Shown here piece after piece: positions 13 through 23,364 of a stretch of 23,809 nucleotides of DNA. Position numbers and translations under genes: made by a program. Location of the stretch: the IMG/VR virus record IMGVR_UViG_3300021365_000119, positions 1-23,809 of that record. One strand, 5' to 3'. The number at the start of each line of letters is the position of its first letter. Position 1 is the first letter of the stretch. The notes beneath the pieces were generated by a model that saw only the letters and a program-made list of their open reading frames with translations, searched no databases and was not told where the DNA came from. Source of the stretch: a virus.

Positions 13-288
13 ATGTTAGAATATTTTACAACCTATAATATTATTATAGGAGTTTCAGTAATACTGAATATTGTCTTATTGATAGGTGTAAGAAACCTTT
101 TAAGACAGAATGAACAACTTGAAGATAGGCTTATTGAAACAATAACTTCTATACGAACTAGAATTCAAACTTCTCTTGAAAATATGAGAAGATTAGATAA
201 TAAACAAGTATTTGAAAAAGATGATGAAGTTGGAGTTTCGTTTAGTGAGATAAAAAAAATAATAGAAACTCTAGATAACAAAATATAA
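13..288 (+). CDS. small membrane-anchored coiled-coil protein, function unknown
   Basis: A 91-residue protein with one hydrophobic segment at about residues 8-27, followed by a charged, helix-favouring stretch (about 30-62) likely to form a coiled coil, and an acidic tail containing KDDEVG and an amphipathic helix (about 68-91). The predicted topology is a short N-terminus, one membrane helix and a long cytoplasmic helical domain. I do not recognise a named family, although small proteins of this design recur in T4-like marine phages. It is followed after one base by the late sigma-like gene, so the two are almost certainly co-transcribed. The upstream region is cut by the window edge, so its promoter cannot be judged. 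The ATG at 13 follows a purely A/T leader with no Shine-Dalgarno sequence. Confidence 0.75.
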   Translation: MLEYFTTYNIIIGVSVILNIVLLIGVRNLLRQNEQLEDRLIETITSIRTRIQTSLENMRRLDNKQVFEKDDEVGVSFSEIKKIIETLDNKI

Positions 289-289
289 T

Positions 290-1036
290 ATGCCAAAAAA
301 AAGAAGAAAAAAATCCAAAATATATTTTGGAACACCAGCACAAGAAGCAATAATAGAGTACAACAAATCAAAGGACTTTGAAGAAAGGTCTAAAATTTAC
401 GAAGAAAGAATTAAATATCCATTTGAAAAACTAGCAGAAAATGTTATGAATACATTTAAGTTTTCGTATTTTGATGTACCAAAAATAGATGTACAAATGG
501 AAGTAGTTTCTACTATGGTAGAAAAAATGCATATGTTTAAAGAAGGTAAGGGAAGGGCTTTTTCTTACTTTACAATTATTGCAAAAAATCATTTGATATT
601 GAAAAATAATGGTAACTATAAAAGATGGAAACAAAATTCATTATTATCTCAAATGCCACAAACTTGGAATCCTCAAAATGACCATTACGAAGCTGAAGAA
701 AAAAATGAATTTAAAGAGTTCAAAGAAATAATGTTAGGCTATTGGGATAGAAACTTAACTACTGTTTTTAGTAAAAAAAGAGATATTCAAATTGCGGATG
801 CAATATTAGAATTATTTCGTAGAAGTGAACATATAGAAAATTTTAATAAAAAACATTTATATCTTCTTATAAGAGAAATGACTGATTGTAAAACTCATTA
901 CATTACTAAAGTTGTAAATACAATGAAACAACATCAGAAAAGATTATTAAACCAATATTTAGAACACGGTCATATTGAAGAAACCAAAGATACTTTTTTT
1001 GATTCCAACAAATATATAGACGAAGAATATTTATAA
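290..1036 (+). CDS. gp55: late-transcription sigma factor, T4 gp55-like
   Basis: A 248-residue protein with a lysine/arginine-rich start (KKRRKKSK, residues 3-10). A central block resembles sigma-70 region 2 as kept in T4 gp55: residues about 44-58 are helical, and about 86-114 include GKGRAFSYFTIIAKNHLI followed by a basic run, the usual position of -10 recognition and DNA melting. In T4 this protein replaces the host sigma and, with the sliding clamp and gp33, directs late transcription. A C-terminal part (about 160-230) has a helix-turn-helix look (LLIREMTDCKTHYITKVV). At 248 residues it is longer than T4 gp55 (about 185). Its probable target is the TATATTTATATA motif found before the late operons here. 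It lies one base after the membrane-protein gene and three bases before the carbamoyltransferase gene. Assignment rests on the region-2-like block and genome context. Confidence 0.72.
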   Translation: MPKKRRKKSKIYFGTPAQEAIIEYNKSKDFEERSKIYEERIKYPFEKLAENVMNTFKFSYFDVPKIDVQMEVVSTMVEKMHMFKEGKGRAFSYFTIIAKNHLILKNNGNYKRWKQNSLLSQMPQTWNPQNDHYEAEEKNEFKEFKEIMLGYWDRNLTTVFSKKRDIQIADAILELFRRSEHIENFNKKHLYLLIREMTDCKTHYITKVVNTMKQHQKRLLNQYLEHGHIEETKDTFFDSNKYIDEEYL

Positions 1037-1039
1037 AGA

Positions 1040-2749
1040 ATGAAAGTAAAATATGTTATAGGAATAAGTTGTGGTTATCACGATTCAGCCGCCTGTTTAG
1101 TTAAAGATGGTAAAGTTATCGCTGCTTGTGAGGAAGAAAGATTCACAGGTATAAAACATGATTCATCATTTCCACATAATACTTTAAATTGGTTTTTTGA
1201 TAAATTTAATATTTCCAAAGAAAATATATCTGAGATATGTTTTTACGAAAACCCAATAACGAAATTAGATAGAATTACAGAATCTACAAAAAGAGGAGGT
1301 ATTTGGAAATATTTCAATAGAAAAAAAATAATAAACAGAAATACCGAATCTTATAATTTATTAAATAAAAATATAGATAAATATAAAGGTAAGAATACCA
1401 ACGTTATTTTTGGTAACCACCATGATTCTCACCTATCATACACCTACTACACTTCTCCATTTAAAACATCAGCAATATTATCAGTAGATGGTGTTGGTGA
1501 ATGGAAAACAACTTCTTTATCTTATGGAGATAAAAATAAAATAAAAGAATTACAAAGTATAGATTTCCCACATTCATTGGGAATGTTTTATTCTTCATTT
1601 ACTGCTTTCCTAGGATTCAAACCAAACGAGGGTGAGTATAAAGTTATGGGATTGGCTCCATATGGTAATTCTGAAAAATATAATTTAAAATTTGAAGATA
1701 TAATTTATTCTACTAAAGATGGTGGATATAAATTAAATATGGATTATTTTGAATACGATTGGTCTGATGACCATATGTTTAATTCAAAACTATCAGAACA
1801 CTTAGGTATATCAAATAGATTACCAGAAGAAGAACTAACACAAGATTATAAAGATTTAGCTGCATCGGTTCAATTTCAATATGAAAAATATTTCTTTAAA
1901 TTATTAAACAGATTATACAGAATAACAGAAACACCGAACTTATGTTTAAGTGGTGGATGTGCTTATAATGGAACTGCAAATGGTAAGATAAAAGAAAAAA
2001 CAAAGTTTCAAAATATTTGGATACCACCAGCTCCATCAGATGCTGGTTCTTCGATTGGCGTGGCTCTTGAAAGTTTTTACAAAGGTATTGATATTGATAG
2101 ACATGATAATACTAATCCATATTTAGGTCCTGATTATAGTAAACAAGATATGTTAAAAGCACTTAATGATTATCATTTAGATGTTTACTATGAATGGAAA
2201 CCGAGTGATGTACTAATACCTTATACTGCTGAACTGATAGCTGAAAATAATATTATAGGATGGTTTCAAGGAAGAATGGAATTTGGTGCAAGAGCATTGG
2301 GAAGTCGATGTATATTCGCAAATCCATGTGACCCTCAAATGAAATCTCGATTAAATAAAGTAATTAAAAAAAGAGAAGGATTCAGACCATTTGCTCCTAT
2401 ATGTAAAAGAGAATCATTAACTACTTACTTTGAATATGATTCTGATATACCATATATGAATCAAGTAGTAAAAGTAGTTGATAGATTTATAAAGAAATTA
2501 CCATCTATAACTCATGTAGATAAATCATCAAGAGTTCAAACTCTAACAAACACAAGAGCTAGATATGTTTATCAACTACTTGGTGAACTAGAAAAACTAA
2601 ATGGATTTCCAATTGTAATTAATACTTCATTCAATTTAAAAGACCAAACAATGGTTCTTACACCAGAAGATGCAATAAAAACATTTTTAAATTGTGAGAT
2701 GGATGTGTTGATACTTGGTTCTTATGTAGTTCGTAAAAAGATTCTTTAA
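1040..2749 (+). CDS. O-carbamoyltransferase, NodU/CmcH/TobZ family
   Basis: A full-length 569-residue carbamoyltransferase. These enzymes activate carbamoyl phosphate with ATP to carbamoyl-adenylate and transfer the carbamoyl group to a hydroxyl. The N-terminal ASKHA-like domain shows SCGYHDSAACLV (residues 10-21), the metal-site HHDSH (127-131), LSVDGVGEW (147-155) and NEGEYKVMGLAPYG (196-209). The middle holds LSGGCAYNGTANGKI and WIPPAPSDAGSSIG. The C-terminal carbamoyl-phosphate domain begins near residue 405 with GRMEFGARALGSR and continues through GFRPFAPI and NTSFN. No expected motif is missing, so it should be active. The acceptor is unknown. Family members modify antibiotics and Nod factors, and phage members have been reported to carbamoylate 5-hydroxymethylcytosine in DNA. 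It is the last gene of the sigma-factor operon and is followed by a terminator at 2854-2883. Confidence 0.93.
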   Translation: MKVKYVIGISCGYHDSAACLVKDGKVIAACEEERFTGIKHDSSFPHNTLNWFFDKFNISKENISEICFYENPITKLDRITESTKRGGIWKYFNRKKIINRNTESYNLLNKNIDKYKGKNTNVIFGNHHDSHLSYTYYTSPFKTSAILSVDGVGEWKTTSLSYGDKNKIKELQSIDFPHSLGMFYSSFTAFLGFKPNEGEYKVMGLAPYGNSEKYNLKFEDIIYSTKDGGYKLNMDYFEYDWSDDHMFNSKLSEHLGISNRLPEEELTQDYKDLAASVQFQYEKYFFKLLNRLYRITETPNLCLSGGCAYNGTANGKIKEKTKFQNIWIPPAPSDAGSSIGVALESFYKGIDIDRHDNTNPYLGPDYSKQDMLKALNDYHLDVYYEWKPSDVLIPYTAELIAENNIIGWFQGRMEFGARALGSRCIFANPCDPQMKSRLNKVIKKREGFRPFAPICKRESLTTYFEYDSDIPYMNQVVKVVDRFIKKLPSITHVDKSSRVQTLTNTRARYVYQLLGELEKLNGFPIVINTSFNLKDQTMVLTPEDAIKTFLNCEMDVLILGSYVVRKKIL

Positions 2750-2853
2750 ACTTTTCTTTAACTAAAATATACTTATTTGTAGATAGAGGAAACTATTTTA
2801 AGTTATAAATTACCTCGGAAATCTCTAATCGTATAACAAATTGGTTAGAATAG

Positions 2854-2883
2854 AAACCCAACGAATTTCGGTTGGGTTTTTTT
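2854..2883 (+). terminator. intrinsic terminator after the carbamoyltransferase gene
   Basis: A perfect 9-base-pair stem, AAACCCAAC (2854-2862) with GTTGGGTTT (2871-2879), closes an 8-base loop and runs into seven consecutive T (2877-2883). It would end the sigma/carbamoyltransferase transcript. Confidence 0.9.
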
Positions 2884-3043: not shown

Positions 3044-3274
3044 ATGGAATTTTTGAAAAAAATAGGCTCTTGGGCCGAAGAATTAACAAAAATTGGTATC
3101 AGTTTCATCGCCTTTGGAGTTGTACTTGAAGTACTCTTCTCAGGTGCAAACATCCCTTTTTGGCCAGAAGTATCAGTAGTTGGTAACATTATGGACATAT
3201 TAGGAAGTTTGAGTGCTGAGGGTCTGTTAGGACTTGTAGGGGCTTTTGTACTATATCATATCATTAAAAAGTAA
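3044..3274 (+). CDS. small two-helix membrane protein, holin candidate
   Basis: A 76-residue protein with a short charged start (MEFLKKIGSWAEE), a first hydrophobic segment at about residues 16-33, a polar/proline turn (about 34-50, including NIPFWPEV), a second hydrophobic segment at about 56-73 and a basic end (IIKK). Size, two predicted membrane helices and charged termini fit small phage holins, which permeabilise the inner membrane to release a cell-wall hydrolase. There is no direct sequence signature for that role. It has the best Shine-Dalgarno sequence in the window (AAAGGAG, six bases before ATG) and is a single-gene unit between two terminators, as expected for a separately timed protein. 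It could instead be an uncharacterised membrane protein. The CHAP-bearing gene 1.8 kb downstream is the nearest hydrolase. Confidence 0.6.
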   Translation: MEFLKKIGSWAEELTKIGISFIAFGVVLEVLFSGANIPFWPEVSVVGNIMDILGSLSAEGLLGLVGAFVLYHIIKK

Positions 3275-3344: not shown

Positions 3345-3356
3345 TATATTTATATA
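3345..3356 (+). promoter_or_regulatory. putative late promoter, exact TATATTTATATA
   Basis: An exact 12-base copy of the motif found before each late transcription unit. It lies 7 bases after a terminator T-run and 19 bases before the ATG at 3376. It is expected to drive the unknown protein, spike and CHAP hydrolase genes. Confidence 0.7.
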
Positions 3357-3375
3357 CAACTAATATGGTATAATT

Positions 3376-3789
3376 ATGAGTACAAATTTTGAATTATTTC
3401 CTGGCAAAAATCTTAGTGGATTATTTAAAAATATCTATGATAATCAACAAAATAAGAAACAAAAGATTTCAGAACTAATTGCTGAAATGAAAAAGGTAAT
3501 TAGACATTCTGGTGATATGGCGGTAATTGGTCCAATCATAAAAGATTTAGTTGATACATCAGTAAGAAACGATGAATCACTTCTTAAGATGGCTGCAATT
3601 GCACAAAGAATGGTTGCATCAAAAGAAAAAGTAGATGGCGATACAGGATTTCTTAGTGACCAAGAAAAAGAACAATTACTTCAACAACTTGAAGATACTG
3701 TTATTGAAATAGAAAATGAAAAAACAAAAGTTGATGATTTAACTAATGAAGTTGAAGAATTAAAACAAAAGGTAGATATAGATGAGTAG
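3376..3789 (+). CDS. uncharacterised coiled-coil protein heading the spike operon
   Basis: A 137-residue, almost entirely helical protein with no membrane segment. The start (LFPGKNLSGLFKNIYDNQQNKKQKI) is followed by a hydrophobic/charged helix (about 35-75). The last third (about 95-135), rich in Q, E and K with regular leucine/isoleucine spacing, should form a coiled coil. I do not recognise a family. It is the first gene after a putative late promoter, and its stop overlaps the start of the spike gene by eight bases (ATGAGTAG), so translation of the two is probably coupled. A role in tail or baseplate assembly, for example as a chaperone, is suggested by position only. The start is fixed by the promoter 19 bases upstream; an earlier ATG at 3365 meets a stop after two codons. 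Confidence 0.7.
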   Translation: MSTNFELFPGKNLSGLFKNIYDNQQNKKQKISELIAEMKKVIRHSGDMAVIGPIIKDLVDTSVRNDESLLKMAAIAQRMVASKEKVDGDTGFLSDQEKEQLLQQLEDTVIEIENEKTKVDDLTNEVEELKQKVDIDE

Positions 3790-11851: not shown

Positions 11852-13681
11852 ATGGCAATTAAAGAATTTAAAGATATAGTAGATAGAAAAGGATACTTAG
11901 TTGAAAGTGAGGATAGAAAAATATTCGAACAAGAACTAACTAAATCTAACTATGGGCTGGGTTGTGATGATATGATTGAATTCATACTTTATGATTCAAA
12001 TGATAATCAACTGCCACAAGGAGAAGATGGAAAACTAGTAAAATACATTTCAACTGATGATGTAGATTACAAAAAGTATTTTTTAAACTTGCCTAAAAAC
12101 CCATATACAAACAAACCAAACGATTCAGATGATTATATTATTGATTTACAACAACTTATATTAGATTCAGGATATTCCAATGGTATCTTTAAAACTCAAG
12201 TAACTTTTTTAAATAGAAGAATTGGTTCTGAGGTGGGTTTAGATAAAACTTGGATACACGAAGTATCGCCATCAAGAACAGAAATTAGAATACTTCCTCT
12301 TAAAAACAAATCAACAGATGAAGATTTAGAAAAAAGATATTCGGTTTTTACAAACAAATCAACTTTTAGAGATGATATAATTTATAACATTAGAGAATAT
12401 ATTGATAGTATCAATCTACAAAAAATTAAAGAATTTATAACTTTCAGAAAAGGAACAGAAGCGGAAGGAAAACAATATATTAATTTAATTAAAAAAGAAT
12501 TTAAAATAAATAATTTTGATTCCTTTTTATTAAAAATAAGAGATAAGTGGATTGAATCAATAAAATATTATGTTGATGGTTATGGTTGGGATATTAAAAA
12601 TATTAATTATGGTAAACCACTTGGAAATAAACAAGAATGTATTGAACTTTCATTAAAAGAATTAAAAACTGATTTAGAATCATCATTAATAAACATTATA
12701 GATAAATTTTTATTTAAAAGAGATATTATAGAAGATAATATTTTAACAAAAGAAGAACAAATAACTTTAGATAAAGTAAAAAATATTTTAAAAACAACAA
12801 CATCTGATGGTATTTATGAAAGTACAATTCCTGAAGATGTATCTGCAATAGTCAGAGGTTGTACAGACCCTAATTCTAAAAACTATAATCCTCTTGCAAA
12901 AGAAGATGATGGTAGTTGTTTATATGACGTGGAAGATATTGAAGTAGCTGGTTGTACAGACCCTAGTTCATTAAACTATAATCCAAATGCAACAGTAGAT
13001 GATGGTTCGTGTAGATATGAAGATACAATACCAACTGTTACTAAACAATATTATGTTTGGTCTGCAACAGCCACTATCAAATGGAAATTAAATGGTGTGG
13101 CAGCTGGAATCGAATCGGGAGTTGAATATGATTCATTTACAATTACACATGATGTAGGACATATAAAATTTGGAATAAATGATGATGTTAGAGAAGTTCC
13201 AAAAATTATTCAAACAGTAAATACCTTTTTCTATTATATTATAAACAGAACAACAACATCAAATTATCAATACTATAATCAAAACAATTTTACAGGATTG
13301 GGTGGATTTGGAAACACTGCAATACCAGACCTTAGTGGATTATATGATGTATATAATAACGACCCATTTGTAGGACAACCTGTAAATGTAACGTATAAAG
13401 ATGAACTAGGAAACACAGTAACATCATTAGAAATATCTGCAGGAGGACAGGTTATGATTTGTGCACAAGAAGGAAGTGTTTCTAATATACCTGGTGTTGA
13501 AGTTATAAAAGGAGATTTATGTGCTACACAACCTAACACAGGAGGTGGAAGTACTGGTGGTGGAAGTGGAAATAACTCAGGTCCTCTTGGTGGAGGTGGT
13601 GGAGGAGGTAGAGATATACCAAATCCAGGTGATGATGAAGTAATAGATAGAGAAGATTTAGATATACAAAATTATAGATAA
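11852..13681 (+). CDS. baseplate protein with two GCTDP/DDGSC modules and Gly-rich tail
   Basis: A 609-residue protein. The first 300 residues look like a far-T4 baseplate protein and contain KTWIHEVSPSRTEIRILPLK (about 132-151), a motif recurrent in large marine phage wedge proteins. Two cysteine modules follow, at residues 336-356 and 367-387. Each has GCTDP, NYNP and DDGSC with a Cys near each end (C337/C356, C368/C387), like short acidic, probably calcium- or disulphide-stabilised modules of secreted Bacteroidetes proteins. Residues about 395-555 are a beta-rich domain, and about 563-592 are Gly/Ser/Asn-rich (GGGSTGGGSGNNSGPLGGGG). The protein likely forms part of the baseplate periphery or connects to fibres. 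It is followed after 16 bases by the 1761-residue gene, whose N-terminus carries a third copy of the module. Confidence 0.72.
   Translation: MAIKEFKDIVDRKGYLVESEDRKIFEQELTKSNYGLGCDDMIEFILYDSNDNQLPQGEDGKLVKYISTDDVDYKKYFLNLPKNPYTNKPNDSDDYIIDLQQLILDSGYSNGIFKTQVTFLNRRIGSEVGLDKTWIHEVSPSRTEIRILPLKNKSTDEDLEKRYSVFTNKSTFRDDIIYNIREYIDSINLQKIKEFITFRKGTEAEGKQYINLIKKEFKINNFDSFLLKIRDKWIESIKYYVDGYGWDIKNINYGKPLGNKQECIELSLKELKTDLESSLINIIDKFLFKRDIIEDNILTKEEQITLDKVKNILKTTTSDGIYESTIPEDVSAIVRGCTDPNSKNYNPLAKEDDGSCLYDVEDIEVAGCTDPSSLNYNPNATVDDGSCRYEDTIPTVTKQYYVWSATATIKWKLNGVAAGIESGVEYDSFTITHDVGHIKFGINDDVREVPKIIQTVNTFFYYIINRTTTSNYQYYNQNNFTGLGGFGNTAIPDLSGLYDVYNNDPFVGQPVNVTYKDELGNTVTSLEISAGGQVMICAQEGSVSNIPGVEVIKGDLCATQPNTGGGSTGGGSGNNSGPLGGGGGGGRDIPNPGDDEVIDREDLDIQNYR
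12857..13012 (+). repeat. tandem GCTDP...DDGSC cysteine modules
   Basis: Two in-frame module copies inside the 609-residue protein: 12857-12919 and 12950-13012, with a 10-residue spacer. The second copy is nearly identical to the copy at 13839-13901 in the next gene: 63 of 71 bases match over 12950-13020 against 13839-13909, and six of the eight differences are synonymous. The first copy is clearly more diverged. Confidence 0.85.
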
Positions 13682-13697
13682 AAACTAGGGTAAGATA

Positions 13698-16600
13698 ATG
13701 GCAAGATTAGCTAATTTTAATAAAGAAAACCAAGAACTCAGAAATGAAAGTATTTTTTTTGATGAAAATGGAGACGGCCTTAACTTAAATTCTGGTGGTG
13801 GTGGCGGAGGTTCATCGAAACCTGTTAATATCATTAGAGGATGTACAGACCCAAGTTCTTTAAATTATAACCCAAGTGCAACAGTAGATGATGGTTCATG
13901 TAAATATGATATATCTACTGAACCTGTAAAAGGAAAAACACTTTCTTTGAGTATAAATCCTAATTTAAAACAATCTAAGATTGTAATAGATGGAAAGGAA
14001 ACAAATGAACTTGCTCCTAAAACGTTAGTATTTACTGCAACTGAATTATTAACTCCAAAAACAATTACTGTTTCAAATTCAAATAAAAAAGCAAAGGAAG
14101 AGTATGTTGTTTATGCTATAAAAAATTCAATTAGAAAAGAAATCAAACCGCTTATTGATATTTTACCTGATGAAGAAACAATATTTGAAAATACTAGGTT
14201 TGAGGAAGTAGGAGTTACAATTTCAGGTGGTGCAATTAAATCATATGGAACATATGATACACCTGAATTACGAAACTTAGGAAACTCTCCACTAAAAATT
14301 TCTTCAATATCTGGTATACCAGATGTTTATACCGGATATACAAGACCAGTTAAACCAATTGTTGTAAAAAGACCTGAATTGATATTAGGTGATGTATTTT
14401 ATGACTATTACACTTTTGTTATTGAAAAAAGAGGAGTCAATAATACAGTAAAAATAGCAAGAGCATTTGATTCTGAATTAGATTCAAAGGGATTATCTGT
14501 TTTACTAAATGGAAATGATGCAGTTTCAACACAGGCAACAGCAACTTTATCATTTACTTTGGAATCAACTAATACACCTTTACCAATACCATATATAGTT
14601 GATATAGATTGTGATTTAGCAGGAGATGGAATTATACAATACATAACTTCTTGGGGAGATAGTGGTAAACTACCAAGTACAGGTAAAATACAATTATCTG
14701 GTGAAAATCTAAATAATCCATCTATTGAATTTTTTGGTATAGGAATATCTTCATATACACATAAGGTATCTTATGAATATATTGGACGTAAGCCAATTGA
14801 AAATATAGATTCTAAGTTTGAAATACAATCATATACTCAAACAATTGTAGTAAAAGCATCAAGAGCAGAAGTAACACCTGCACCAACTAAACCAAATATA
14901 AAAGTTGAAACAGAGATTGTTAAATATAATATTAATAGTGAAGAACCATTAAAGATAGGATATCAAACAAGTTATACAGATGAGGTACTTTATAAGCTTG
15001 GTAAAACAGAAAAAAAATTATCAAGAAGTGGTTCATTAATTTTAACTAAATCTGATTTTTTAAATGGTGTTGGTAACTATATTATTTATTTACAACCAAT
15101 ATCAGAAAGAGGTGGTACTGGAGATTATAAAAAAATAGTAATTAATGTAATTTCAAAAGATTATATACCTGGACCAGACATAACTCATATTAATTATCCA
15201 CAAAACATTAAAGGAGCTGATTTTAAAGAATATGATGTTCCATTTAAAGTTTCTTGGCAATCCATTAATACAAATTATATAAAAATATTTGTAGGTAAAC
15301 AAAGTGATACTACATATTTAGGACAATTCCCTAATGCATCAGTTGCTAATTTTAATGTTGAAGAAGTTTTAAGAAAAGCTGGAGACCGGTTAGATTTAGA
15401 CGCTAATATAATTCAATTCAAATTATTATTTGTACCTTTTAATCAAGAAGGAGATGAATTAACAGAAGGTAAAGTAGAGGAAATAAGTATTACGTTTGAT
15501 AAGGGGGATTTAAAATTAAGAAGAGGAAATGTAGTAGCTGATTTAAGACAATCATTCTTATCTAATATAGATAACAATAAATTAATTAAAGATACCTCAC
15601 CATTACTTTCACATTATTTACATATTGGAAATGGTGATAATAAATTAATATCAACATGGGGTATTGATGATTTAACATTTTCAGAAAAATATAATGATTT
15701 AGAAACAAATGAAGTAAAATATAAAAATGTAGAAAAATCATTAGTTTTAAAATTATATGAACCACTACCAAGAAACATTAATACAAATGATGTGGTATGG
15801 GTTTCAAAAATACAATCAGTTCCTTTAATTGATACTATTGAAATTACAGAAGATTTTTCAAAAGAATGTACACCATTAATTCCTAACTTTAATTTAAATG
15901 TTACTGATTCAATTGGATATGAAGTATTGGATGATTTAATTGCAAGTGGTTCATCATCATCGACAGAACTTGTAAATGAGTTTGTTTCTTCTAGTAACTT
16001 TAGTTTATCAAGTTTTAATATACAGTTCGTAAAACGAAAAGAAGTAGTATTTGAAGAATATAGTGGGTCATCTGCAAATATAATTATACCAACAGGAGAT
16101 GATGTTTATAATTGGGATTCTTTTGTAAAGTATTCCTCTGCAGAAGAAAGAAGTGAAAACTTTTTATATAAGGTAAAACTAATAGAAGCATATTCTTCTT
16201 CAGTTGCCGATATTAATACACGAGTTTCTACTGTATCATTATCAAATGAAAAAACAAAATTAGAAAGTAAAATTAATGATGTTAAAAAAGGATTTGATTC
16301 TTTTGAAAGTTATTTATACAACTCAACTGGTTCATTAACTTATCCTGGTGCGGGATTAAACGAATTATCTGCATCAACAGATTCATCTGTTACTGGTTGG
16401 CACACTCATATAATATCATCATCAAGGCATTATGACTATTATAATCCATCAAGATTATCATACAACTTACCAGAATATATAAAAGAAGATGATAAGAATG
16501 ATGAATTTACTTTATTCTTTGATATGATAGGTCAACATTTTGATATTATACATACTCACATTAAAGGTATTTCACAATCTAAAAAATTAGAACATAAACA

Positions 16601-18983
16601 AGATATCGGTATTAAAGATGATTTAGTTTATCACTTATTAGAATCATTTGGATTTGATGCGGATGTAGGTGCAGAAAGTCAATTATTGTGGGAACATGCA
16701 TTTGGTTATTGGGATAAAAATAAAAACGAAAGAGCAGATGGAAGTTCTAAATCAGTATTAACTGCTAAGGATAAACAACAACAAATATGGAGAAGATTAC
16801 TAAACAACTTACCATATTTAAACAAACATAAAGGTACTAAAAGAGCATTACATGCTGCTATGAGTTGTTATGGTGTACCTGCTTCATTATTAACAATAAT
16901 GGAATTTGGAGGACCAAAAGACCCAACACAAGATGGTACAACTAAATTTACTTTTGAAGATAGAACTTTATCAATTAATCTTATTAGTGGTAGTTCAATT
17001 ACAGTTCCTTGGAAAACATTTACTAACTCACTAAGTACAGACTATCCAAACGCAGTTGAAATACGAGTAAATACAGAACAAAGACAAGACCAAAGAATTT
17101 TAAGTGGTTCTGATTGGTCATTGGATATTATTAAAGATACTGGTTCACTTGCTAAAGTTAAATTAACAGTAGGACCTGATTCAGCGAGTACAGAAGCTAT
17201 TCCATTTTTTAATGATGAATATCAACATATAACTGTAAACAGAACAAGTGGAAGTTTAGATTCATTTGAAGTATTTGTTAAAGAAGGATTCCAAGGTAGA
17301 ATTAGAAATCAATCATCTGCTTCTATTTCATCTGCAACAACTAAAGCATGGACAAGTGGTAGTGAATTGAGTTTAGGTCATACATTTATAGGTTCGGTAG
17401 ATGAATTTAGATTATGGAGAACTCCTCTTTCTGAATCAAGAGTAGATAATCATACATTGATGCCAGATGCTATTGACGGTAATCACATATCTGCATCAAC
17501 TCATGATTTAATTTTTAGAAATGATTTTGAATATCCAAAGAATAGACACTCAAGTGGAGATGTTGATATTAAGAATGTTGCTTTAGTAACAACTTATTGT
17601 ACTTCATCTGTTGCAAGTGGATTTTCAAATGAAACAACATATCCATACCAATACACTCCTTATGATAGAGATGTAACTGCAAATATTCCATCAACAGGAT
17701 TTAATTTTGCAAATAAAGTAAGATTTGAATCACAAACAAAATTAATAGATTTATCTTACAGACAACGAGCAACTAAAAAATCATTTGACCAGTCTCCTGT
17801 TGATTCAAATAGGTTAGGATTATTTTTCTCACCAATAAAAGAAATTAATTTAGATATTTTAAAAGGACTAGGTGAATTTAATATAGATAACTATATTGGT
17901 AATCCTGCAGATGAATACTCGGATGAATACTCTGATTTAAAAACATTAAGAAATTATTATTTTAGTAGATATACATTAAACCTACATGAGTATATTCAGT
18001 TGGTAAGATATATTGATAAATCTTTATTCAAAACATTAGAATCACTTGTACCTGCAAGAGCAAAAGTTGCAAGTGGACTATTAATTGAACCACATATTTT
18101 AGAAAGAAGTAAAACTAAGTGGACAAAACCAAGTGGTACACTTAATTCATTAACATCATCGATAGATGTAGAAGAAGATGTAAATCTTACATCTACAAAT
18201 CCACAATATGATGTAATAGTATCTGCATCACAGGATATAGACCTTATCGGTACAAATCCACAATATGTAGGAACCATAGATACTGAATCAGATGTGGTTA
18301 TAACATCAACAACATCAGATTATTCAGCAACAATTACAAATGAAGATACAACTAAATTAGAAGGAACTATTACACGAAACTCTGGCTCTGATATGGGAGG
18401 AATTTCAATTACTATAAACGCACAACTAACTGGTTCTGTACAAGGACAATATGATTCAACTGCATATCAACAAGTTGGAATGGATATAGATGGAATATCA
18501 AAAGTAGGATTTGGTTTATATGGTAGTGGTTCTCATGCAATACGAACTAGATTATTTAACAATAATATTGTAAAAGATAGAGTTAAAGTATTTTTATTAA
18601 ACGAATCATATACAGAAGATGTACCACAAAATATAGATTCATCTGATTCATCGAGGGGTGTGGAATTTGTAACTCAAACAAAGTATAGAAAAAGAGTTTC
18701 TATTTTACCATTTACCGGTTCTGATGGAAACGAATCAACAACTCCAAGTGGGGGTAATATAGTTTCAGCAACCGCATTAGATGGTTATTTCCCAACACAT
18801 TACAGAAATACAGGTGATTTAACAAGTGGTATGGAAAACTCTTTCTTTAATGGTTCAAAACAAACAAGTGCAACTACTTTAGATGGTGGTTCACCTGTAC
18901 AAACATTTACTACCAATCCAAATACATTGAGAGTATCTGATAGTGGCAGAGGAAGTGGGGAACCGATTTTAGAAGTAGATTAG
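13698..18983 (+). CDS. giant baseplate wedge/adhesion protein with LamG-like domain
   Basis: A 1761-residue protein, the largest in the window. Order of parts: a short start; a poly-Gly stretch (about 32-40); one GCTDP...DDGSC module (48-68); a long series of beta-sandwich/Ig-like segments (about 75-620); helical regions (about 830-1000); and a block typical of tail protein I/gp7-like wedge proteins in far-T4 phages, with FFDMIGQHFDIIHTHIKGI (about 941-959) and LPYLNKHKGTKRALHAAM then SCYGVPASLL (about 1037-1064). A concanavalin/LamG-like jelly roll (about 1084-1254) has HITVNRTSGSLDSFEVFV and FIGSVDEFRLWRTPLSE. Three tandem 19-residue repeats (1494-1550) lie near the C-terminus. It probably forms the wedge arm that links the baseplate core to the receptor-binding periphery. 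The start has a weak GGG Shine-Dalgarno sequence. Confidence 0.75.
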   Translation: MARLANFNKENQELRNESIFFDENGDGLNLNSGGGGGGSSKPVNIIRGCTDPSSLNYNPSATVDDGSCKYDISTEPVKGKTLSLSINPNLKQSKIVIDGKETNELAPKTLVFTATELLTPKTITVSNSNKKAKEEYVVYAIKNSIRKEIKPLIDILPDEETIFENTRFEEVGVTISGGAIKSYGTYDTPELRNLGNSPLKISSISGIPDVYTGYTRPVKPIVVKRPELILGDVFYDYYTFVIEKRGVNNTVKIARAFDSELDSKGLSVLLNGNDAVSTQATATLSFTLESTNTPLPIPYIVDIDCDLAGDGIIQYITSWGDSGKLPSTGKIQLSGENLNNPSIEFFGIGISSYTHKVSYEYIGRKPIENIDSKFEIQSYTQTIVVKASRAEVTPAPTKPNIKVETEIVKYNINSEEPLKIGYQTSYTDEVLYKLGKTEKKLSRSGSLILTKSDFLNGVGNYIIYLQPISERGGTGDYKKIVINVISKDYIPGPDITHINYPQNIKGADFKEYDVPFKVSWQSINTNYIKIFVGKQSDTTYLGQFPNASVANFNVEEVLRKAGDRLDLDANIIQFKLLFVPFNQEGDELTEGKVEEISITFDKGDLKLRRGNVVADLRQSFLSNIDNNKLIKDTSPLLSHYLHIGNGDNKLISTWGIDDLTFSEKYNDLETNEVKYKNVEKSLVLKLYEPLPRNINTNDVVWVSKIQSVPLIDTIEITEDFSKECTPLIPNFNLNVTDSIGYEVLDDLIASGSSSSTELVNEFVSSSNFSLSSFNIQFVKRKEVVFEEYSGSSANIIIPTGDDVYNWDSFVKYSSAEERSENFLYKVKLIEAYSSSVADINTRVSTVSLSNEKTKLESKINDVKKGFDSFESYLYNSTGSLTYPGAGLNELSASTDSSVTGWHTHIISSSRHYDYYNPSRLSYNLPEYIKEDDKNDEFTLFFDMIGQHFDIIHTHIKGISQSKKLEHKQDIGIKDDLVYHLLESFGFDADVGAESQLLWEHAFGYWDKNKNERADGSSKSVLTAKDKQQQIWRRLLNNLPYLNKHKGTKRALHAAMSCYGVPASLLTIMEFGGPKDPTQDGTTKFTFEDRTLSINLISGSSITVPWKTFTNSLSTDYPNAVEIRVNTEQRQDQRILSGSDWSLDIIKDTGSLAKVKLTVGPDSASTEAIPFFNDEYQHITVNRTSGSLDSFEVFVKEGFQGRIRNQSSASISSATTKAWTSGSELSLGHTFIGSVDEFRLWRTPLSESRVDNHTLMPDAIDGNHISASTHDLIFRNDFEYPKNRHSSGDVDIKNVALVTTYCTSSVASGFSNETTYPYQYTPYDRDVTANIPSTGFNFANKVRFESQTKLIDLSYRQRATKKSFDQSPVDSNRLGLFFSPIKEINLDILKGLGEFNIDNYIGNPADEYSDEYSDLKTLRNYYFSRYTLNLHEYIQLVRYIDKSLFKTLESLVPARAKVASGLLIEPHILERSKTKWTKPSGTLNSLTSSIDVEEDVNLTSTNPQYDVIVSASQDIDLIGTNPQYVGTIDTESDVVITSTTSDYSATITNEDTTKLEGTITRNSGSDMGGISITINAQLTGSVQGQYDSTAYQQVGMDIDGISKVGFGLYGSGSHAIRTRLFNNNIVKDRVKVFLLNESYTEDVPQNIDSSDSSRGVEFVTQTKYRKRVSILPFTGSDGNESTTPSGGNIVSATALDGYFPTHYRNTGDLTSGMENSFFNGSKQTSATTLDGGSPVQTFTTNPNTLRVSDSGRGSGEPILEVD
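13839..13901 (+). repeat. third GCTDP...DDGSC module copy
   Basis: Encodes residues 48-68 of the 1761-residue protein (C49 and C68 flank the acidic loop). It is a close relative of the copy at 12950-13012 in the preceding gene and directly follows a poly-Gly stretch. Confidence 0.85.
18177..18347 (+). repeat. three tandem 19-codon repeats
   Basis: Encodes residues 1494-1550 of the giant tail protein as three 19-residue units: DVNLTSTNPQYDVIVSASQ, DIDLIGTNPQYVGTIDTES and DVVITSTTSDYSATITNED. Units one and two share TNPQY and the nucleotide string ACAAATCCACAATATG. The alternating hydrophobic pattern suggests a small beta-solenoid or stacked strands. Confidence 0.75.
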
Positions 18984-22334: not shown

Positions 22335-22907
22335 TTGAGTTTACTCTACAACATTTCAGGTAAATGGGCATTTATCCATATTCCAAAAACTGCTGGTACA
22401 TCTATAAATAAAATATTATTAACTGATAAAAATACAAAATTTTTAACATCACACGATTCTATTAGATTATTACCAGAGGATAATTTATATACATTTACAT
22501 TTGTAAGAAATCCATATACACGATTTTTATCAGCATGGAATCACGGAGTAAGAAAAAATAAATATACTTCAGATTTGAAAGATTTTATAAAAAATATTAA
22601 TTTAAATGATGTTTGGCTACTACCTCAATCATATTATGTAAACGAAGGTAAAACCAAAAACAAAAAAGTTAATTTTATAGGCAAATATGAAAATTTAAAA
22701 AAAGATTTTCAAATAGTTTTAAACAAACTTGGAATTCAAGGAACACTTGAACACTTAAATAGAAATCCTATCTACAACAGTCATCCAACACTAAATCAAG
22801 AAAACTATTATCTATCAACGTACAAACATAAAACATGGGTAAGAGATTTCGTAAAAGAAACTTATTACAATGACTTCAAGATTTTTAACTATGACATGGA
22901 CATATAA
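22335..22907 (+). CDS. sulfotransferase (Sulfotransfer_2-like), PAPS-dependent
   Basis: A 190-residue sulfotransferase-family protein. The 5'-phosphosulfate loop is at residues 13-24, FIHIPKTAGTSI, with K18 and T19/T22/S23 as PAPS contacts. The 3'-phosphate site is FVRNPYTRFLSAW at 56-68, with R58 and S66. A later FIGKYENLKKDF (about 114-125) fits the usual YE element. Such enzymes move sulfate from PAPS to hydroxyl or amino groups, mostly on carbohydrates. It is short (many members have 220-300 residues) but keeps both cofactor motifs. The only workable start is TTG at 22335: an in-frame stop lies at 22329-22331 and no ATG precedes the cofactor loop. The TTG start and lack of a Shine-Dalgarno sequence predict weak translation. 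It lies 10 bases after the 60-residue gene and overlaps the nuclease gene. The acceptor is unknown. Confidence 0.85.
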   Translation: MSLLYNISGKWAFIHIPKTAGTSINKILLTDKNTKFLTSHDSIRLLPEDNLYTFTFVRNPYTRFLSAWNHGVRKNKYTSDLKDFIKNINLNDVWLLPQSYYVNEGKTKNKKVNFIGKYENLKKDFQIVLNKLGIQGTLEHLNRNPIYNSHPTLNQENYYLSTYKHKTWVRDFVKETYYNDFKIFNYDMDI

Positions 22908-23364
22908 CGGAAGATGTATAACAGAATTATCAGATATGCCAGAAGGTACATTTGGTTTTATATATAAAATAACTAATGGAAAAACTGGTGAATATTACAT
23001 CGGTAAGAAACAAGTAGTTTCTATTAGAAAAAGAAAATTTGGTAAAAAAGAAATTGCCAAATTAACAGATAAAAGAATGAAACGATACGAAATGGTAGAA
23101 AAAGAATCTAATTGGGTAGATTATCGTTCATCAAATCCAACAGTACAACTTTGGTTTCATTCAAATGCAATGGCATTGGAGGAAGAACCAAGAGGAGAAA
23201 TAAACGATACATTAGAACTAAAAATACTTAGATTCTGTAAAACTAAGAAGGCTTTAACCTATTATGAACTACAAGAACAGTTCTCACACAATGTATTAGG
23301 AGATGAGTTATCCTTAAATGATAACCTATTAGGAAAGTTTTTTAGAAAAGACTTGGATAATTAA
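22891..23364 (+). CDS. GIY-YIG-type nuclease
   Basis: From the ATG at 22891 the product is 157 residues. GFIYKITN, 14 residues on YYIGKK, and a following basic SIRKRKFGKK give the two conserved strands and arginine helix of a GIY-YIG nuclease (residues 22-53). NWVDYRSSN (74-82) and LELKILRFCKTKKALTYYE (108-126) match the back half of the fold, with E109 a candidate metal-binding glutamate. These domains cut DNA, usually nicking or making staggered breaks, and occur as homing or repair enzymes in T4-like phages. An in-frame ATG at 22870 would add seven residues. I prefer 22891 because related phage proteins start with a short MTWTYNG-like segment. The overlap with the sulfotransferase gene is then 17 bases. 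There is a 24-residue insertion-like stretch (about 83-107) between conserved parts. Confidence 0.82.
   Translation: MTWTYNGRCITELSDMPEGTFGFIYKITNGKTGEYYIGKKQVVSIRKRKFGKKEIAKLTDKRMKRYEMVEKESNWVDYRSSNPTVQLWFHSNAMALEEEPRGEINDTLELKILRFCKTKKALTYYELQEQFSHNVLGDELSLNDNLLGKFFRKDLDN

Follow-up and report, generated by a model that had tools for sequence, protein, structure and literature searches.

The virus record analysed here encodes a complete O-carbamoyltransferase that is a core gene of an uncultured marine T4-like phage lineage, in which it is placed between a sigma-like gene and the tail operon. Several lines of comparison point away from phage DNA as its substrate, and we give roughly even odds (about 0.5) to a stand-alone carbamoyltransferase acting on a glycan or a sugar precursor. 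The window is the entire 23.8-kb IMG/VR virus record, which is possibly a fragment, and it gave no match when compared as a whole with cultured phages by Megablast. Its genes follow a T4-like order, with a small hydrophobic protein, the sigma-like protein and the carbamoyltransferase followed by baseplate and tail genes (Table 1).

Table 1. Positions of the sigma-carbamoyltransferase gene string and of the transcription signals that follow it in the window.
Feature	Position	Strand	Evidence
Conserved protein of 91 aa whose N-terminal part has a hydrophobic stretch; lies upstream in the sigma-carbamoyltransferase gene string	13..288	+	ORF list, conservation
Likely gp55-like sigma factor gene encoding 248 aa, directly 5' of the carbamoyltransferase throughout the lineage	290..1036	+	Fold match, synteny
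O-carbamoyltransferase, 569 aa, PF02543 + PF16861	1040..2749	+	ORF, domain, tree, residue evidence
Probable intrinsic terminator, AAACCCAAC...GTTGGGTTT + T-run	2853..2883	+	Folding of 2840-2890
TATTTATA motif, a candidate late promoter for the tail operon starting at 3376, not for the carbamoyltransferase	3347..3354	+	Conserved position

The first-pass annotation had described a complete NodU/TobZ-type O-carbamoyltransferase located three bases after a gp55-like gene, and both the complete enzyme and the spacing were confirmed. The reading frame has an ATG start, is free of internal stops and follows the end of the sigma-like ORF after a gap of 3 nt. Carbam_trans_N (PF02543) was matched over its full length at residues 6-343 (E 3.6e-68, 231 bits for a cut-off of 24), as was Carbam_trans_C (PF16861) at residues 397-566 (E 5.3e-61, 205.5 bits for a cut-off of 27). 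The protein also matched PHROG 1601, 'Nol-like carbamoyltransferase' (8.5e-115), and the structures of NovN, 7xb6, GdmN and TobZ. The HHxxxH motif at 127-131, D150, D334, R418, R445, R498, N528, S530 and N532, which are invariant in 183/183 aligned family members, are all intact in the window protein; their roles in the metal site and the carbamoyl-phosphate site are those that we take from general knowledge of TobZ. Judged by these features of its sequence, the protein belongs to the NodU/TobZ O-carbamoyltransferase superfamily. It shares domain make-up and conserved residues with TobZ, GdmN and NovN, although these are distant actinobacterial enzymes with antibiotic substrates.

Relatives were collected as two sets of IMG/VR loci, 80 gathered by the carbamoyltransferase and 80 by the sigma-like gene. 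The carbamoyltransferase lies directly after the sigma-like gene, usually 2-12 nt away, in 79/80 sigma loci, these being the 80 most similar ones, so that more distant loci may differ. Seen from the other gene, the sigma gene precedes the carbamoyltransferase wherever the upstream sequence of the carbamoyltransferase loci extends far enough. Exactly one carbamoyltransferase copy was present in each of the 21 large contigs, the largest of which measures 287 kb. The dN/dS of the gene was 0.06-0.09 against the four nearest full-length relatives tested and about 0.2 (up to 0.23) against relatives at 73-75% protein identity, values that indicate purifying selection. Because the pair recurs in almost every locus, with a carbamoyltransferase that is single-copy and under such selection, the pairing is real biology and not chance, and the tight association suggested by the window extends to its closest IMG/VR relatives. 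The carbamoyltransferase is absent from two cultured phages that share the sigma and baseplate genes, Flavobacterium phage immuto (Immutovirus) and Microcystis phage Mel-JY01, as well as from a 484-kb uncultured phage; it was therefore either acquired by the marine lineage or lost elsewhere. These absences indicate that the body plan does not depend on the gene, as would be the case for a passenger gene (moron) that serves no function linked to the phage lineage. The constant position in the nearest loci, the membership of one clade and the low dN/dS make such a passenger highly improbable.

The 248-aa product of the upstream gene gave no match in Pfam, PHROG and PDB-sequence searches, and when its profile was compared by hhalign with that of the gp55 annotated in S-SSM7, the E-value was only 0.013 and the probability 3.4%. 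An AlphaFold model was built from 17 lineage sequences, with a modest pLDDT of 66. Almost all top structural matches of the predicted fold were sigma factors, and the best tight match was T4 gp55 itself (7d7c_F; Z 10.4, 125 residues, 4.5 A). The gp55-like identity first assigned to this gene is thus supported by the modelled fold and is likely to be correct.

The motif TATTTATA, which is the reverse complement of the T4 late TATAAATA, is found on the + strand of the window at 3347, 6476, 19015, 20996 and 22112, ahead of tail and structural genes, and shows a strand bias of 254 vs 64 occurrences. The tail-operon gene p3376 is preceded by it at a distance of 29-32 nt in 77/80 relatives, and p6505 in 79/80, there mostly at 23-33 nt; the corresponding position in Immutovirus has it upstream as well. 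The 100 nt ahead of the small protein and of the sigma gene contained it in 0/68 and 0/75 loci. A copy located 12 nt before the carbamoyltransferase start was considered as a late promoter of that gene and rejected; it is formed by the Tyr-Leu-stop codons of the sigma gene and was therefore treated as chance. The motif is present in 18/36 distinct sigma genes ending in YL, roughly 0.4 being expected from codon usage. Downstream of the carbamoyltransferase, the terminator region folds at -15.4 kcal/mol (z -3.3), and the consensus scanner did not flag it. The placement of TATTTATA and the terminator after the carbamoyltransferase suggest that transcription of the sigma-carbamoyltransferase string comes ahead of that of the late genes. 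The carbamoyltransferase would then probably be co-transcribed with the sigma gene, ahead of the structural genes and up to the terminator, with a timing that we deduce from the motif positions.

It had been proposed that the enzyme carbamoylates 5-hydroxymethylcytosine (5hmC) in the phage's own DNA and thereby guards it against host restriction. This has a precedent in a metagenomic, phage-associated enzyme of the superfamily, a 5hmC carbamoyltransferase active in vitro (MetaGPA enzyme, PMC8670742), and TobZ W408, G421 and R423 were named as the positions with the strongest association with modification (PMC8670742). The near-universal presence of the gene in the lineage, its probable expression before packaging, a thymidylate-synthase-family gene upstream in relatives and a 2OG-Fe oxygenase gene nearby in a few of them would all suit this proposal. 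However, in a maximum likelihood tree of 59 sequences, the validated 5hmC enzyme groups with Xp15, Effie, BF503P4 and one IMG/VR sequence in a DNA-acting clade (support 100/100), and the window lineage forms another clade outside it (support 99/100), the branches that separate them being long (3.0 and 1.5). Positions 408, 421 and 423 were mapped by the GW..GR.E.GPRALGNR spacing, where the window numbering coincides with that of TobZ, TobZ itself being left out of the alignment. The window protein carries the canonical W408, G421 and R423, and its lineage has W408 in 81/87, G421 in 87/87 and R423 in 87/87 sequences, whereas the DNA-acting clade has I, V or L at 408, C421 in 4/5 and T423 in 5/5. 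Position 408 is variable among known cyanophage members, so that W408 by itself does not settle the matter.

The partner genes of the two groups differ as well. As the first-pass annotation had stated, the window has no hydroxymethylase or TET gene; it contains no thymidylate-synthase gene either, and the partner-gene test was run on relatives. Their thymidylate-synthase gene, located about 5-6 kb upstream, carries N177 in 45/45 copies, including the one at locus L005, whose carbamoyltransferase is 97% identical to that of the window. It has H147 in the readable copies save one cut-off copy, and it passes the NCBIfam thymidylate synthase cut-off, so that this homologue was ruled out as a hydroxymethylase. 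By contrast, a thymidylate-synthase-family gene with D177/T147, which reads as a dCMP hydroxymethylase-type signature, is found near the carbamoyltransferase in 4/4 DNA-acting-clade loci tested (Xp15, Effie, BF503P4 and L261). No second PF00303 gene was found in the 287-kb contig. A Tet_JBP search of the 21 contigs gave no match, although this is a weak test in which no positive control matched either. A pattern scan of IMG/VR for relatives of the validated 5hmC enzyme found only one, and a search of the open literature on 5-carbamoyloxymethylcytosine for follow-up work turned up nothing beyond the original report (PMC8670742). Because the clade, the three residues and the ordinary partner thymidylate synthase agree with one another, DNA carbamoylation is unlikely, and we leave it only a slim chance. 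Of the two findings that the first-pass annotation had named as together refuting DNA modification, the phylogenetic one was obtained.

Compared with the 5hmC carbamoyltransferases (MetaGPA, Xp15, Effie, BF503P4), the window enzyme is alike in its two-domain superfamily, its phage-borne gene and its family-wide conserved residues. It differs in that its lineage forms a separate clade, does not have the I/V/L408-C421-T423 pattern and has no dCMP hydroxymethylase-type partner in the relatives examined. Many marine phages carry carbamoyltransferase genes, and the discovery of the 5hmC enzyme makes it tempting to call all of them DNA-hypermodification genes. The three-part test used here (clade, residues 408/421/423 and residue 177 of the partner thymidylate synthase) tells the DNA-acting phage carbamoyltransferases apart from the others and identifies one phage lineage whose core carbamoyltransferase is not of the DNA type.

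The closest sequences outside the lineage are cellular, with 36-42% identity over many phyla, and come from SxtI-type modules in which the carbamoyltransferase is accompanied by SxtJ (PF19588) and DUF5989 (PF19451), sometimes with a GDSL hydrolase. SxtJ lies near 70/80 and DUF5989 near 61/80 cellular carbamoyltransferase loci. The canonical residues are common to both groups, but a downstream SxtJ or DUF5989 partner was found in 0 viral loci, and residue 417 (window 2288-2290), which adjoins R418, is A or S in the phage lineage and P in 79/80 cellular and 5/5 DNA-acting sequences. The 76-aa ORF at 3044-3274 was tried as a DUF5989 or SxtJ partner and gave no match. The neighbours of the cellular homologues revealed no single glycan signal, GDSL hydrolases being the commonest.

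In the marine T4-like phages S-CAM3, S-CAM1, HTVC008M and Mosig, carbamoyltransferases adjoin heptose or other sugar genes, and the copies of P-SSM2 and S-SSM7 sit elsewhere. The window enzyme has in common with the cyanophage and pelagiphage Nol-like carbamoyltransferases (S-CAM1, S-CAM3, P-SSM2, HTVC008M) its occurrence in marine T4-like phages, G421 and R423. They differ from it in forming a branch of their own, at less than 33% identity, and in their varied genome positions, several being in sugar operons. S-SSM7 (L265) has about three carbamoyltransferase genes, one of them near its gp55 gene. In the window lineage, 30/31 eligible loci have a conserved nucleotidyltransferase gene about 3.5 kb upstream. 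Its best named match is heptose-1-phosphate adenylyltransferase, at 63.7 bits far below the curated heptose-enzyme cut-off of 181.5, and it also resembles glycerol-3-phosphate and ethanolamine-phosphate cytidylyltransferases. A family-2 glycosyltransferase was found in only 3/21 large contigs. Also upstream of the sigma gene, SAM synthetase (MetK) is conserved in 21/23 and peptide deformylase in 44/44 eligible loci (L035 4193-7767 and equivalents).

By analogy with TobZ, the enzyme would be an ATP- and carbamoyl-phosphate-dependent O-carbamoyltransferase, in which carbamoyl-adenylate would be formed by the C-terminal domain and its carbamoyl group then passed to a hydroxyl group by the N-terminal metal site. 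The family context suggests a sugar as the likeliest acceptor, either a nucleotide-sugar or a glycan of the infected-cell surface or of the virion, and a carbamoylated glycan could change phage binding or superinfection. A glycan or small-molecule acceptor, which the first-pass annotation had kept as a fallback, is the better-supported branch, DNA being the weaker one. Against a sugar count the scarcity of family-2 glycosyltransferases, which means that the acceptor may be host-made or non-sugar, the sub-cut-off score of the nucleotidyltransferase and the separate branching of the sugar-operon phage enzymes. It is a serious possibility that the acceptor is instead a small molecule, nucleotide cofactor, lipid head group or RNA; a host metabolite would be one example. 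The SxtI-type module of the closest cellular relatives, the small-molecule substrates of NovN, GdmN and TobZ and the metabolic neighbours in the lineage (MetK, peptide deformylase, thymidylate synthase) are consistent with this, but no neighbour makes an obvious acceptor and, with SxtJ and DUF5989 missing in the phages, the cellular context is not directly transferable. We consider it rather doubtful that the gene is an obligatory sigma-linked takeover function which acts early in infection by carbamoylating a previously unknown acceptor (cell-surface glycan, nucleotide-sugar or other host molecule); if true, this would be a phage strategy not yet described for the carbamoyltransferase family.

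Other features of the window were recorded. A sulfotransferase-family gene with a TTG start (22335-22907; PF03567; PHROG galactose-3-O-sulfotransferase) could decorate a glycan, and its end is overlapped by a gene for a SegE-like GIY-YIG homing-type endonuclease (22870-23364). The tail-region proteins encoded at 11852-13681 and 13698-18983 contain repeats of the type GCTDPSSLNYNPxATVDDGSC.
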